Source of the DNA: Bondarzewia mesenterica | Taxonomy: Eukaryota > Basidiomycota > Agaricomycetes > Russulales > Bondarzewiaceae | NCBI GenBank assembly: GCA_004802705.1 | Contig: SGPL01000435.1 | Span: 1-28,213, forward strand | DNA: 28,213 bases | Direction: 5' to 3' | Shown here: positions 22,813-28,213 of the stretch, one piece after another | Numbering within the stretch: the first letter of the stretch is position 1 | How the letters are laid out: every line of letters starts with the position of its first letter | The notes under the pieces: generated by a model | Seen by the model: only the letters and a program-made list of their open reading frames with translations | Databases searched by the model: none | Told to the model about the DNA's origin: nothing | Translations under genes and position numbers: made by a program

Positions 22813-22977
22813 GATGGAGACGGTAGGAGGAGCACAGCAAGAGCACAGTATGTATGACAGTGTAAAAGCGACCTAGTGTTATTTCTGTGACTGGAAGTCA
22901 CTGGATGTGACGCGTCCTTCGTTCTCCTTCGTTTCCATCCAAGTCGTTTCAACTTTCTAATGAAGGTCTGACTTTTC

Positions 22978-23243
22978 AGCACTCTCTTAGCGGCAATCGT
23001 CAAAGCACTTAGATGCCATGGGTATGTGCCGTTATTCTTGAAAACTGCAAGTCTCGTAATAAACTTCAAAATTTCAAAGCTTTTATGTTTTAACATTGGG
23101 ACTTGGTAGATCGTCTTTGGTATGTCTTAATAGCGATTCGACATTCATCACACTGAACATCGTTGATCCAAGAGACTGCAGATAGCCAAAACAGTTTTGT
23201 ACAAGATAGAGTGGGTCATACAACTCATTGCTTTACACATATT
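22978..23243 (+). repeat. Left inverted-repeat arm
   Basis: From AGCACTCTCTTAGCGG to CTTTACACATATT. It is the reverse complement of 27948-28213 with one mismatch (GTCATAC here, GTCGTAC in the other arm). It starts 165 bp upstream of the zuotin start codon; the true outer edge may lie anywhere between 22813 and 22978. Confidence 0.95.
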
Positions 23244-23575
23244 ACGATTCCCGAATAGGGAACCATTACTTGTGGAAGGACCGTCCTACAAAGAATCGTT
23301 GATTCTAGTGGACTACAAAATCGTGAAAGTCAAAATTCAAATCGCGAAAGCCGGACTTCTAATTGTAAGATTTATTTAGATTCCGAATTCGAATCGTAAG
23401 AGTCATTTAGAGTCCGAATCATGCTCTTTATGCCCACAACAAAGCTGGTAAGAAACAAGTTGTAGTGTCTCTTCACCGACTAACCGGTAACTCAATTTAC
23501 CAGTGACTTCTCTAGTTCTTCGTGTTGTAGTCAAACTGCATTTTGACACGGATCGCTCTCTACTCAAAACATTTA
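23244..23575. other. Subterminal AT-rich sequence with short tandem repeat
   Basis: No coding signal. A tandem pair of about 30 bp lies at 23365-23395 and 23396-23424; both copies start GTAAGA and share ATTTAGA-TCCGAAT. Related GAATCGT words are scattered upstream. Such subterminal repeats are common in TIR transposons. Confidence 0.45.
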
Positions 23576-23870
23576 TCATCCCGACGCCTCCGTGGAAGCT
23601 CTCACAGGAGCCGAAAGCTGGAAGGGTACGATGGGGAGTAAAAACAAGGAAACTGAAAGTAAGTCCGTACATTTTGTTTGTATACTAACAACGTTACATA
23701 GGCATCGTACACACCTCCAGCTCGCTGTTTTAACACAGCGGGCATTCGTTCTCCCCCACTGGCTGCCTTATTCAACCGTGCTTCTGTCGCGCCTCCACCG
23801 CCTCTGACGAGCACACCCTTCTCCAACCTCCCAAACACTGCACCCGCCCATTCCCCTGCAACCAACAAGA
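23575..23870 (+). pseudogene. Captured exon-intron-exon piece, copy 1, family unknown
   Basis: Reads WKLSQEPKAGRVRWGVK up to ...LK, then a 43-nt intron (23659-23701, GTAAGT...CATAG), then ASYTPPARCFNTAGIRSPP followed by a Pro/Ser-rich stretch. The same block recurs in diverged form at 24984-25166 with an intron of equal length. I do not recognise the source gene. Confidence 0.45.
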
Positions 23871-24072
23871 GTGGGGTATGCTCCAAGCCCATCGATCGAT
23901 GACTGTCGAGCTCTGCACAATGCACATTTATCAAGGATGACAAGTGCAAGCTCTAGCGGCATCATCAAAACCCTCGCCTCCATCTCCTCACCTTTTAACT
24001 TTCTAGCCGCAGAGGACGCGGCTGACTCCTCTCCCTCGTCATCGTCATCAGGAGAGATAGGTCATGTGCCGA

Positions 24073-24228
24073 TCATCACTGCGAGCTCGAGAGCGTCAGG
24101 CGCGACGACGGCCAACCACTCCGGTGCATTGGGTGCGGCGTGGATGAGCACGGCGAGCATCGCAAGGAAGTGCGAGAGCACGACGGCGTTGAGAATGAGG
24201 CCCGTGCCCGCACTGTCAACTTAGTTCG
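24073..24228 (-). pseudogene. Possible membrane-protein fragment
   Basis: On the minus strand one frame reads LILNAVVLSHFLAMLAVLI followed by HAAPNAPEWLAVVAPDA and a stop: a hydrophobic helix plus a short tail. It has no start codon. It looks like the end of a captured gene, but I cannot name it. Confidence 0.3.
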
Positions 24229-24559
24229 ACTCGTTGCTTATTTCTCCCCTTCCGCTCTTGCCTCTTCATCTATAATTTCCCCATCTCCTGTCATCTTACA
24301 CAGGTCACCAGACCGCGACTTGTTGCTCACCATGCACAGAACACCCATCAATTCATCTTGTAAGCCCCGTTCCATTTTTTTTTAACGTGACGACTGACAA
24401 CATGGATGGATGGAACCTTGTGTGTCGTGTGCGTTAGGCATATGCACCAGGTGTTTCTAGTGTCGAAGGATACGGACCAGGTGTTGTGGAGGATGGGTGG
24501 AAACAGTATAAACCCCATCTCGCGTCGCTCGCCACTAGTCCTCCTCAGTCAACGCCCTC

Positions 24560-24930
24560 TCTGCCATTTGCGAAGTGACTGACGCGAACACCAACAAAGT
24601 CGTGCACGCCGTCGGCAAGGATTCGTGCGTGGGCCCCAAGTTTCTCAGGGTGTCAGTCGGTCATTTGCGCTCGGCTTTCGATTCAGACGGTGGAGGGAGA
24701 TCTACTCGTGTTTGCTCAAACGAATATAGCGAAGATTCTGGCGATGGCGGATATGGAGGTCAAGTACAAACCCAAGGTCAGTCGTCATTTATACGCCATA
24801 TTTTAGACTCATTGTCTGTATGGACTCCGATGACATACCTCTCGTATAGGTTCCGGTGTCCCAGAAGTGATGCCTTGGCATACGCTCGATGTACCGGGAG
24901 CACCTGCTGTCCATCGAGTACGTGTTCAAT
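24560..24930 (+). pseudogene. Captured coding fragment in shifting frames, family unknown
   Basis: Protein-like text continues across frames: ICEVTDANTNKVVHAVGKD, SCVGPKFLRVSVG, then in another frame VEGDLLVFAQTNIAKILAM and ADMEVKYKPK ending at a possible donor (GTCAGT at about 24776), and after a CGTATAG acceptor MYREHLLSIEYVFNL-like text with an earlier stop. It looks like a disrupted host gene with one intron; I do not recognise it. Confidence 0.35.
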
Positions 24931-24983
24931 CTCTCTAGTCTTCGCTTGTAATTGATCTCCTCTCTCAACTTTCTCTCAACCTC

Positions 24984-25170
24984 GTCATCCCGGCGTGCCC
25001 GTGGAAGCTCTCATAAAGCCGAAAGCTGGAAGGGTACGAAGGAGAGTGAAAAAACGAAATTGAAAGTAAGTTTATACTTTTTATCTGCATACTTACAACA
25101 TTACACAGGCATCATACATGATCCCAGCTCATTGTTTCGACACCGCGGGCATTCATGCTTCCCCCAGCAC
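24984..25170 (+). pseudogene. Captured exon-intron-exon piece, copy 2
   Basis: Diverged copy of the block at 23575. It shares CGTGGAAGCTCTCA, GCCGAAAGCTGGAAGGG, the exon end TTGAAA and a 43-nt intron (25066-25108), then GCATCATACATGATCCCAGC. Its second exon runs directly into the minisatellite at 25178. Confidence 0.5.
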
Positions 25171-25177
25171 ATTACAG

Positions 25178-25448
25178 CCCTGTCGTTTCGACGCGACTTG
25201 GTTTGCACTCATCCACCTCATTTTCAGCCCCACCGTTTCGGCACAATGGGGCTTCGCGCTCGCCCAGCACGTTCCCAGCCTCATCAATGACGGCGGAGCT
25301 CACGCTCATCCAGCATGCCCCCAGCACTATCGTTTCTGTATGACATGGGTTCGCGCTCATCCACCCGATCCTTGGCCCTGTTGTTTTGGTACGATGGAGC
25401 TCCGTGCTCACGCAGCACATTCCCAGCCCTGTTGTTTCGAGACGGGAG
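25178..25448 (+). repeat. 51-bp degenerate minisatellite
   Basis: Units start at about 25178, 25228, 25279, 25325, 25376 and 25427 with lengths 50, 51, 46, 51, 51 and a partial copy. Each starts like CCCTGTCGTTTCG and ends like CAGCACATTCCCAG. In one plus frame three of the units read as a 17-residue repeat around FGTMGLRAHP-type text. The first unit grows out of the exon of the captured block, suggesting local amplification. Confidence 0.7.
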
Positions 25449-25477
25449 TTAGAAACAAGAGACGGCAAGGCGCTTCC

Positions 25478-25753
25478 ACGCACAGCAGTTTAGATGTGAG
25501 ATAAATCTCAATGCACTGTGCACGACCTTTTTGGCATCATCGTTTAGGAAGGTGCCATGTCCTGGCCTCGTGGGCCCCCAGGAAAGAAGCTGCAGCATCT
25601 CCACCATGCAATTCTGCTCTGTCTGCACACGCATAGGGGCACATGTGAATGGGAGATGACGCGGGAGGGTCTGTCAGACACACTCACCTCTGCGATGTGG
25701 AGCGTCACGCCCAGTCCGGTGTCTTTGGTGGCATTGAAGCACTCGGAAAGTCC
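25478..25753 (-). pseudogene. Adenosine-deaminase-like (ADAL type) gene fragment
   Basis: The minus strand reads ECFNATKDTGLGVTLHIAE, a GTGAGT...TGCAG intron (25623-25687), then TEQNCMVEMLQLLSWGPT and RPGHGTFLNDDAKKVVH. After a frame change it gives CIEIYLTSKLLC. These match the family's catalytic-region order (LHxxE, GHGTF, xxLTSN). Upstream and downstream parts are missing. Orientation is opposite to the neighbouring captured pieces. Confidence 0.75.
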
Positions 25754-25878
25754 GTCACGTCGCCTGCTTGAACAAAGTGAAGAGGCTCGGGCCTAGCTCA
25801 GTCAAAAAGCTTGGGTCCCATGACAAGTGTGCACATACGGCTTTTTAGTTGACCATTCATTCCTGATCATTTGTTCAG

Positions 25879-26014
25879 AACATCTCACCCCAAGCAAACA
25901 AGCTGGTCATGGGCATCGTGCAGGACACGCTTTGCGGTATTTGCAAGTTCACTCCGTGATACATTCCTAGACTGGAATCAGGTGCAGAAAATCCTCCTTT
26001 GGGTACCTGATTGT
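25879..26014 (+). pseudogene. RNA polymerase II largest subunit (RPB1) fragment
   Basis: After an acceptor-like TTGTTCAG the sequence reads [25 protein letters not shown], then, after an apparent 2-base loss near 25953 that gives a stop, [19 protein letters not shown]. This is the conserved [18 protein letters not shown]...ILLWVPDW segment of fungal RPB1. It covers about 45 residues of a protein of about 1,750. The following bases (26015-26155) read as other protein-like text that I cannot assign. Confidence 0.85.
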
Positions 26015-26237
26015 GAACAAGTACAACGAGAGAGAAATCTTCGCAAAGCATGCTCCATTGGATGCACCGTTGCGAACCGTTGGGTGCTGACTGGCCGAGT
26101 TTCTTGTCATGAGGCTGTCTTTCGCACCCACATCCTTCCCGTAAGTACCGTTTAAATACTACTTCTCCACACCATGCGAGGCCGAACTATCCCCCACACA
26201 CACGTTGGTCGAAGAGGAAGCACAAACAGATACTGCC

Positions 26238-26700
26238 ATGCCTACCCTCAATGACGATGATCAAGGTGAGCGCAAAATGTCCGACCATCACGAGGCAAAA
26301 GTTGATACGTTTCGCATCGAAGGTGCTAACTGCAATGACGAGGGAGTGTGGATAGTGGATTGGGATGGCCCAGACGATCCTGAAAATCCAAAAAAAGTGT
26401 GTTCGTAATTCGTATCTTTTGTCTCGTTTCCCCCTCCCGGTTGACTTCATGTCAACAGCTGGGCTTATAAGAAAAATGAATGGCAGTTCTCATCGTGTCC
26501 TGCTTCATGTTGATCTCCCCTATTTCCTCTATGATCACACCTGCATCTGAGCAGGTTGCAGTGGAATTTGACATCATAAACACAGTCGAGATAGCTATAA
26601 TCACATCTGTTTTCGTGTTAGCCTACGGTGCGTATGCCGTTCTCGTTCTGACTAACTTCTTCACTTCTCCCTGCACCACTTTTGGTCATTTTGGAATATG
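26238..26700 (+). pseudogene. MFS transporter (DHA1 drug/polyamine type) 5' fragment
   Basis: ATG at 26238 (MPTLNDDDQGERKMSD), then IVDWDGPDDPENPKK, the typical pre-TM1 motif of this family, an intron from 26397 to about 26458, then NWAYKK and, in a shifted frame, AVLIVSCFMLISPISSMITP (TM1) and SEQVAVEFD...IAIITSVFVLAYG (TM2). It stops at a donor-like GTGCGT after VLAYG; the remaining ten or so helices are absent. An extra A in the A7 run at the exon end and a second frame change near 26475 break it. Confidence 0.85.
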
Positions 26701-27128
26701 AGTCTGCATTAGAGACAGGATGCTTTAAGATAGTTCATAAATTGCATAGGTCCTCTATTTTTGTACTATGTTATAAAATGTAAATGGATAAGCTAGGCAT
26801 CCATAGTAAACTACTTAAGTGTGAGATCATTTATTATTAATTTATTTAATAGCTTGATAAAATGTTAACATAAAGTTGTATATTATATAAAATAAAGTTA
26901 AAGAGAGGCAAGAATCATTTATGCCGTGCAACGTAGCGGCCCTCTCCTAACAAGTATTATTACTGTCTGGTGAACATTCTTGCAAATCTGCACGATACGC
27001 TGGAGATAAGTCATGATACGAGCAGCCAGCTGCATAGTTCTAGAGTCTGGGGAACACAGAATTTATGGCCGAACACATAGAAGGTGGTCGCCATCTCATC
27101 TAACCCATTATAAGAGTGACATTCTATC
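26701..27128. other. AT-rich spacer inside the element
   Basis: A strongly AT-rich stretch (about 26750-26920), then mixed sequence. I see no coding signal or clear repeat. Confidence 0.4.
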
Positions 27129-27620
27129 ATGCCTAGTACCATCACGTTTCCTGAGTTTCCAGATGATCTCCTCACAGTGCCCTTATTGGTCATCGACTAC
27201 GCTCTGATCAAAGTAGGTGACAAACAAGAAATTGATATACTGTAGAAGGCTTACACGCAACTTAATTTTTGGTAGTGTGCACTATTCAGTGACCTTGGCA
27301 TGCTCCCTGCAATACCTTGACATATTTTGAATGACATTATTGCTCCTCTAGTTTGAAGAACCATGGAGTTGACTACGAAGTACCAGAGATGTTCAACATG
27401 AGCGCGGAGATGATAGAATTGCCATTCAAGGAGAAGATGAAGTACGAATAAGGGGATGAGGAAAAGTCCTTCAAGTAAGCATCGTAACAAAGTACGCACC
27501 AATCAAATTTCTTAGACCTTGCCTGAATGCCAGTTATAAGTCCTCGGGCGCCACACAGGTGCGCCTGATCACATTGAATCCATCAACTTGCATTCTTCCT
27601 TCGTCCTACGAACACGGTGA
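27129..27620 (+). pseudogene. Isopenicillin-N-synthase-like 2OG oxygenase fragment
   Basis: ATG at 27129 starts MPSTITFPEFPDDLLTVPLL then VIDYALIKVGDKQEIDIL, an in-frame TAG at 27243 where Trp is expected, and KAYTQLNF. After a splice to about 27350 come LKNHGVDYEVPEMFNMSAEM and IELPFKEKMKYE with a second stop at 27449, GDEEKSF, another intron, and YKSSGAT followed by a broken GAPDHIESIN. These are the DIOX_N-domain motifs of the family. The C-terminal catalytic HxD...H half is absent. Confidence 0.8.
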
Positions 27621-27947
27621 AGTTAGTCCCTCTGGTTGAAGACAGTGCCATGATCGCAGAAGCTGTTGTCAAGACACCTGGCAAGTATTATATGGATGCG
27701 ATGGCTGAGGAGTAGTACGATCAAGAACCAGAGGATTGCTAACCGCAAGGTCTGTTCATTTAGTTTCCCTGCAACTGTGATCGTGTGACTCACAGAATAT
27801 CTGATCTTGTAGTCTCTATAGCGACCTACACAGAAGACAGTTGTTCTGTGTTAAGCTGATCTTGCAGGGTCCTGAGACATGGAGAGCTAGTAGGGGAACT
27901 GAGCATCATCTCNAAGCTCTTTAATTGATGAGGATGTTTGAGCAAGA
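27621..27947. other. Unassigned sequence before the right arm
   Basis: No gene supported. Contains one N (27913). Confidence 0.35.
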
Positions 27948-28213
27948 AATATGTGTAAAGCAATGAGTTGTACGACCCACTCTATCTTGTACAAAACTGT
28001 TTTGGCTATCTGCAGTCTCTTGGATCAACGATGTTCAGTGTGATGAATGTCGAATCGCTATTAAGACATACCAAAGACGATCTACCAAGTCCCAATGTTA
28101 AAACATAAAAGCTTTGAAATTTTGAAGTTTATTACGAGACTTGCAGTTTTCAAGAATAACGGCACATACCCATGGCATCTAAGTGCTTTGACGATTGCCG
28201 CTAAGAGAGTGCT
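27948..28213 (-). repeat. Right inverted-repeat arm (runs off the window)
   Basis: Reverse complement of 22978-23243 with one mismatch. It is still matching at the last base, so the repeat may be longer than 266 bp. Confidence 0.95.

Follow-up and report, generated by a model that had tools for sequence, protein, structure and literature searches.

Maize provides the best-known cases of gene capture by Helitrons; the gene-capturing Helitrons there are non-autonomous, carry fragments of several unrelated host genes per element and have Helitron1 ends. Here we describe a 28,213-bp stretch of DNA from the basidiomycete Bondarzewia mesenterica (assembly GCA_004802705.1, contig SGPL01000435.1, below C374), the whole of which was analyzed and is called the window, and in it an element at positions 23242–26954 that we read as a gene-fragment-carrying Helitron. 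Like the maize elements, it combines fragments of several genes; unlike them, it has Helitron2-like ends and C-to-T-biased differences.

Among fungal systems, FoHeli1, FoHeli2 and other Helitron2-type elements of Fusarium oxysporum (PMC5148889) resemble it in their asymmetric terminal inverted repeat with a 3' arm tens of bp from the 3' end, in a 5' hairpin, in a T at the insertion point and in the lack of a target-site duplication, as far as the portion of that account used here extends. The window element differs in its terminal sequence (TTACGATTCCC...CTAACAAG), its basidiomycete host and the presence of several host-gene fragments in one element. The same portion gives 27 putative capture events in F. 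oxysporum, most matching Metarhizium hypothetical proteins, with no evidence for an important role of capture, and reports change resembling repeat-induced point mutation (RIP) in F. solani Helitron copies (PMC5148889). HELPO1 and HELPO2 of Pleurotus ostreatus are likewise basidiomycete Helitrons, inserted at A^T without a target-site duplication and bearing a subterminal hairpin, but they end in T[C/G]...CTRR or CTTG; in the available part of their description, HELPO1 carries genes of unknown origin (capA–capF), and P. ostreatus gene fragments are in none of the intact HELPO elements (PMC4289320). The same source mentions Helitron-N1_AN of Aspergillus nidulans, which is also a non-autonomous fungal Helitron with a captured host-gene fragment, but, as described there, carries one such fragment (from a dioxygenase gene) and resides in an ascomycete (PMC4289320). 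In titles and the beginnings of abstracts, with most subscription journals outside the scope, we found no account of host-gene-fragment capture by a basidiomycete Helitron besides PMC4289320.

The window is the entire contig C374, one of 844 in the 33.1-Mb assembly (other contigs are likewise given C numbers). A search with one protein encoded nearby gave 102 relatives, and the three of these that carry an organism name come from Hydnomerulius and Lentinula, as suits an agaricomycete. An earlier note on this DNA had described a Pack-MULE/Pack-TYPE element bordered by near-perfect long inverted arms with one mismatch. The arms are real: positions 22978–23243 and, inverted, 27948–28213 are identical at 265 of 266 positions, the sole mismatch being a transition at 23218. 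They are not, however, the ends of an element. Our reading, to which we assign a probability of about 0.82, is that the supposed inverted-repeat transposon is a non-autonomous, gene-fragment-carrying Helitron with Helitron2/FoHeli-like ends, and that the arms result from the contig crossing between Helitron copies. The features on which this reading turns are the following (2OG, 2-oxoglutarate).

22978–23241, plus strand: left arm, the 5' flank of the Helitron, between a zuotin/DnaJ gene and the insertion site (from arm comparison; the C223 homologue adjoins a 2OG oxygenase gene)
23242–26954, plus strand: probable non-autonomous Helitron with Helitron2/FoHeli-like ends, 3713 bp; genomic copies start and stop at these positions
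23242–23275, plus strand: 5' terminus, TTACGATTCCC(N5)GGGAA..., with a hairpin and preceded by A or G (copy alignment, pattern scan, folding)
26905–26954, plus strand: 3' terminus, comprising the decayed 3' arm of the asymmetric inverted repeat and an imperfect GC-rich hairpin, ending in CTAACAAG and followed by T (alignment, pattern scan)
26955–27949, plus strand: decayed copy of a 2OG oxygenase gene, outside the Helitron (95.6% identical to C821:318–1314, 84–89% to C223)
27950–28213, plus strand: right arm, the left-arm DNA in its empty-site form, without interruption (site at 27949/27950) and truncated where the contig ends

Genome searches with inner parts of the element returned at least 34 and at least 45 matches (the latter with the best 40 of 126 candidates scored); several of our genome DNA searches scored the best candidates only, so that match counts are lower bounds. 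Many of the matches start at 23241–23242 or stop at 26954–26955. Because other copies begin or end at 23242 and 26954, and given the scans for shared ends, we place the element at 23242–26954. Aligned family left ends read R^TTACGATTCCCGATTAGGGAATCGTTACTT (R, A or G; ^, insertion point) and right ends GGGAATCGTT...GCCGTGCAACGCAGCGGCCCTCTCCTAACAAG^T, with variation. The base before the left end is A in 13 and G in 4 of 17 rows, these being the rows kept from an alignment of 18 after one partial row was dropped, including the window and with C821 read from its flank; ACAAGT is present at 27 of the 28 evaluable right ends (29 rows, one cut and not evaluable). Scanning the genome with up to three mismatches gave 66 matches to the left-end pattern and 36 to the right-end pattern, with none for either reversed control. 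In family copies, the 5' TTACGATTCCC is matched by GGGAATCGTT tens of bp before the 3' end, forming an asymmetric inverted repeat whose 3' arm is decayed in the window, and the 5' hairpin folds strongly in a family copy (z-score −5.4).

When the left flank on C374 is joined to the DNA bordering the Helitron end at C821:318, the restored empty site equals the right arm over 119 bases, bar one transition and one N; C223 is likewise uninterrupted at this site, at lower identity. There is no target-site duplication, the insertion lying exactly between two bases, R^T. The final bases of the left arm, TT at 23242–23243, already belong to the Helitron and agree with the target by chance. A Pack-MULE/Pack-TYPE element with 266-bp terminal inverted repeats would account for a near-identical inverted arm pair enclosing host-gene fragments, but the termini common to the copies are of Helitron form and fall within the arms, the restored site lacks a duplication, and the right arm is itself the empty site. 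Nor does the arm behave as a border in the genome. A query covering 22900–23300 gave at least ten matches, namely the two arms of C374, one copy on C223 (71%, on the arm side) and seven matching only from about 23241 rightwards. Among the matches listed, left-arm DNA was thus seen once outside C374, contiguous with the 2OG gene of C223, and no paired arm DNA was found as the ends of other copies. The earlier note had named arm copies occurring singly as an outcome that would refute it, and this is what was seen. We consider the Pack-TYPE classification proposed in the earlier note highly improbable.

The termini also depart from canonical Helitron1 ends (5' TC, 3' CTRR): they read TTACG...CTAACAAG and combine the asymmetric terminal inverted repeat with the 5' hairpin, the latter strong in the family copy, that characterize Helitron2/FoHeli-like elements. 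Helitron_like_N (PF14214) has 44 matches in the genome, 42 of them above the cut-off, and is found in 0 of 14 control genomes. Distances were counted among the 66 left ends, the 36 right ends and 41 of the 44 PF14214 places, with a range of 0.5–9 kb for left-end/domain pairs. Six same-strand pairs of left end and Helitron_like_N lie 5.1–7.5 kb apart at five loci, one of which has two left ends, where about 0.35 are expected (wrong side, 0; opposite strand, 1). Three pairs of Helitron_like_N and right end lie about 5.4 kb apart (about 0.19 expected; wrong side, 0; opposite strand, 1), and nine left-end/right-end pairs occur at seven loci (about 0.53 expected; controls, 2 and 1). No record holding 5' end, domain and 3' end together was found with the patterns used; C618 qualifies if a 73% left-end match is counted. 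Relatives in this genome that encode Helitron_like_N would presumably have mobilized the window element in trans.

The two Helitron junctions suggest how the arms arose. C821 starts with a Helitron right end that is 99.1% identical to that of the window over 318 bp; past this end it runs through the 2OG gene in the opposite orientation (window positions 27949 back to 26953) and then into C223-homologous DNA. As the C821 flank and the left arm together restore the empty site, the left side of C374 and C821 represent a single insertion into an A^T site. A different site, the G^T upstream of the 2OG gene, holds the Helitron end at 26954. In C821 and C223 this second site is empty: both read CAATTGGAG^TATT where C374 has this second 3' junction. 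One Helitron insertion cannot own both flanks; most simply, the contig would pass from one of two near-identical copies into the other. As the window is the whole contig and the right arm extends to its last base, 28213, the outer boundary of this arm is undefined and set by the assembly.

We suggest that seven fragments of apparently different loci were joined earlier into one family element, which would then have multiplied. One copy would have inserted at A^T beside the 2OG oxygenase gene, and a near-identical copy at G^T on the other side of this gene, but in another version of the locus that is probably the second haplotype. C374 would enter the Helitron from the first locus, exit via the second copy and fold back through the unfilled first site, thereby displaying the flank twice, as inverted arms. 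The arms are thus probably flanking DNA doubled by the merging of near-identical copies at a contig end. Genome searches gave no further close match to the DnaJ side or to arm-external DNA (C223 only, at 71–80%), as would be the case if haplotypes or a recent duplication had been collapsed.

Some of the same observations would suit a real inverted duplication, in which head-to-head copies of the DnaJ-arm(-2OG) DNA enclose the Helitron as a result of recombination between Helitron copies. The Helitron 3' junction at 26954/26955 is well formed and lies at an R^T site, the 2OG gene on C374 differs from that on C821 by 43 substitutions and so is a genuine second copy, and there is a precedent in Pleurotus, where the available part of the account places a helitron copy within one arm of a 576-bp inverted repeat in a 37.2-kb duplicated region (PMC4289320). 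However, it is C821 rather than C374 that holds the partner of the left junction, so that a further, collapsed arm copy would be required; the searches just mentioned gave no further close match to DNA beyond the arm; and the right arm ends where the contig ends. We regard a real duplication as unlikely, though worth keeping in view, and favor a contig that crosses between Helitron copies.

Two candidates for the remaining pieces were rejected, one of them in part. C773, considered as the simple other haplotype of C821, was discarded in part, being a 93% copy within an 83-kb contig, where the match is lost at C821:1516 and other DNA follows. The left flank on C441, considered as the missing partner of the second insertion, has no match to C821. 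A further Helitron left end lies at C821:2634, beyond the 2OG cluster, with the same junction in C773. Four RNA polymerase domain-3 loci were seen (C759, C785, C445 and C202), three kinds of RNA polymerase being expected; this may be a hint of two haplotypes.

The 2OG oxygenase that had been counted among the enclosed gene pieces is real (DIOX_N, E = 0.0012, below the cut-off) but lies outside the element. Its copies on C374 and C821 have 43 differences, 42 of which are transitions. With C223 as outgroup 40 could be polarized, three remaining without direction; 39 of the 40 are C>T or G>A (25 in C374, 14 in C821) and the last is a G>C in C374. By context, change affected 18 of 70 CpG, 11 of 156 CpA, 7 of 94 CpC and 3 of 139 CpT sites. 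It ends near 27818, the next 131 bp having no substitution and the arm a single one. Comparisons with seven loci (C675, C248, C31, C359, C737, C759 and C588), read from locus to window without outgroup polarization and partly counted twice where C248 overlaps the C675 stretch, together gave 149 C>T or G>A changes, 46 in reverse and 51 transversions, whereas Helitron-linked comparisons outside that total run the opposite way (C15, 12 versus 16; C731, 10 versus 18). The C-to-T pattern looks like either RIP or decay of methylated CpG.

Within the 2OG copy, a 46-bp repeat at 27810–27855, without evident terminal inverted repeats, is flanked by the 9-bp direct repeat CTGATCTTG and is absent from C223; the window and C821 share this one insertion. 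Scanning the genome for its 35-base core gave 81 matches, 39 forward and 42 reverse, of which 40 are exact, against 0 for the reversed control, and flanking repeats of 8–9 bp accompany 8 of 10 copies viewed, one of them with a mismatch. The repeat may be an unusually short mobile element, such as a miniature inverted-repeat transposable element or an introner-like one.

Between its termini, the Helitron carries seven fragments, which make up about 61% of its length (from coordinates) and are 79–90% identical to matching loci elsewhere in the genome; listed with them is one stretch that we read as internal to the Helitron itself.

23754–24211, minus strand: TELO2-like gene fragment (C675, 86%)
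24383–24508, strand not assigned: fragment of an unnamed locus (C31, 90%), without Pfam match
24523–24664, plus strand: fragment of the central domain of UDP-glucose dehydrogenase (PF00984), with a second, Helitron-linked copy on C15
24658–24924, strand not assigned: fragment of an unnamed locus (C359, 84%), without Pfam match
24980–25440, plus strand: probable Helitron-internal stretch, about 69–77% identical to other loci, several with Helitron ends (genome searches), and partly duplicated at 23576–23757
25446–25770, minus strand: probable ADAL-type deaminase fragment (C737, 79%)
25773–26016, plus strand: RPB1 fragment (parent gene on C759, 90%)
26014–26738, plus strand: MFS-linked fragment, contiguous with genomic DNA on C588 (87%)

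As the fragments match genomic loci contiguously, DNA was copied, and the view of a mobile element with several host-gene fragments taken up as genomic DNA is upheld. The RPB1 piece was correctly named: its PF04983 match (25879–25962, E = 6e-4) is below the Pfam cut-off, but its C759 parent is clear, with Rpb1 domains 3–6 in a 511-amino-acid open frame. The proposed MFS transporter piece can be called MFS-linked from its surroundings, as C588 has an MFS_1 match (E = 6e-10) in the same direction about 450 bp beyond the shared stretch; Pfam gave no MFS match within the fragment. For the ADAL-type deaminase on the minus strand, the support is a weak PDB match (best, an ADAL protein, E = 0.018; 6 of 11 listed entries adenosine-deaminase-type, the others ankyrin repeats and an unrelated protein) and one of two exon peptides that recurs at C737 (76% over 21 residues); the second peptide was not found there, and Pfam gave no match for the fragment. 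The earlier inventory had missed the true termini as well as the TELO2-like and UDP-glucose dehydrogenase pieces. The matching open frame on C675 has a weak Telomere_reg-2 match (E = 2e-4, below the cut-off) and a neighboring frame a better one (E = 3e-6, above), while PF00984 matches at E = 5e-5 in a long frame (below) and at 5e-7 as a short peptide (above).

The decay of the fragments, and the close spacing of several of them (gaps of only 2–14 bp, or a 3-bp overlap), might be expected had they gathered at one locus through nested insertions and deletions rather than been carried by a Helitron. Sister copies argue otherwise. C441 matches 23241–25400 at 98.6% (2160 bp), to its contig end, and C409 matches from 25767 through the right end at 97.6%, its left part being unrelated; both keep the fragments and their order beside the same Helitron end, with unrelated DNA outside. 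Local accumulation is therefore very unlikely, and we retain Helitron carriage. C658 matches 23519–23817 at 98.7% and then diverges. Together with C821, these partial copies are 97.6–99.1% identical to the window element, as compared to 79–90% between fragments and loci, which supports the earlier suggestion that the cargo is older than the last amplification, as judged from sequence identity.

Several points weigh against the Helitron reading or parts of it. In the window copy, the terminal hairpins are weak (5', z −1.87; 3', z −0.28), and the energy of the imperfect GC-rich 3' stem is no better than that of shuffled sequences in the family copy as well (z −0.38). The crossover between Helitron copies we infer from assembled contigs. 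The 5' partner of the second insertion is not among the 17 left ends whose flanks were read, no direct search for it having been made. The 2OG copies differ by 4.4% versus 0.4% for the arms, so the two-haplotype picture needs C-to-T change confined to part of the repeat. As to parental loci for the cargo, the C759 RPB1 gene was found, but DNA matching revealed no intact parent for the UDP-glucose dehydrogenase or ADAL pieces among the best-scored candidates; a Pfam search of the genome gave three deaminase loci, none of them on C737, and C31, C359 and C737 may be either parents or other mobile copies.

Related elements carry overlapping sets of pieces. On C731, dehydrogenase-region, RPB1 and TELO2-like pieces precede a family right end in an order unlike that of the window. 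At C15:37602–40729, a family left end has, by calculation roughly 0.6–1 kb inside it, a dehydrogenase piece as well as a match to glycogen synthase (E = 3e-54); as C15 showed no right end, these two pieces are candidate parts of an element. Based on the seven-fragment element, the reordered relative on C731 and the left end with its pieces on C15, we think it rather likely that Helitron2-like elements in this genome serially capture and reshuffle many host-gene fragments, in a maize-like manner, and that captured or duplicated pieces then decay by CpG-biased C-to-T change.

For the reading of assemblies, the window illustrates that a contig end together with near-identical mobile copies can mimic terminal inverted repeats. 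The matching loci, the sister copies and the restored empty site make the mechanism and rate of capture testable in a small genome. Serial capture, if true, would contradict the published, Pleurotus-derived view that fungal Helitrons seldom capture host-gene fragments.

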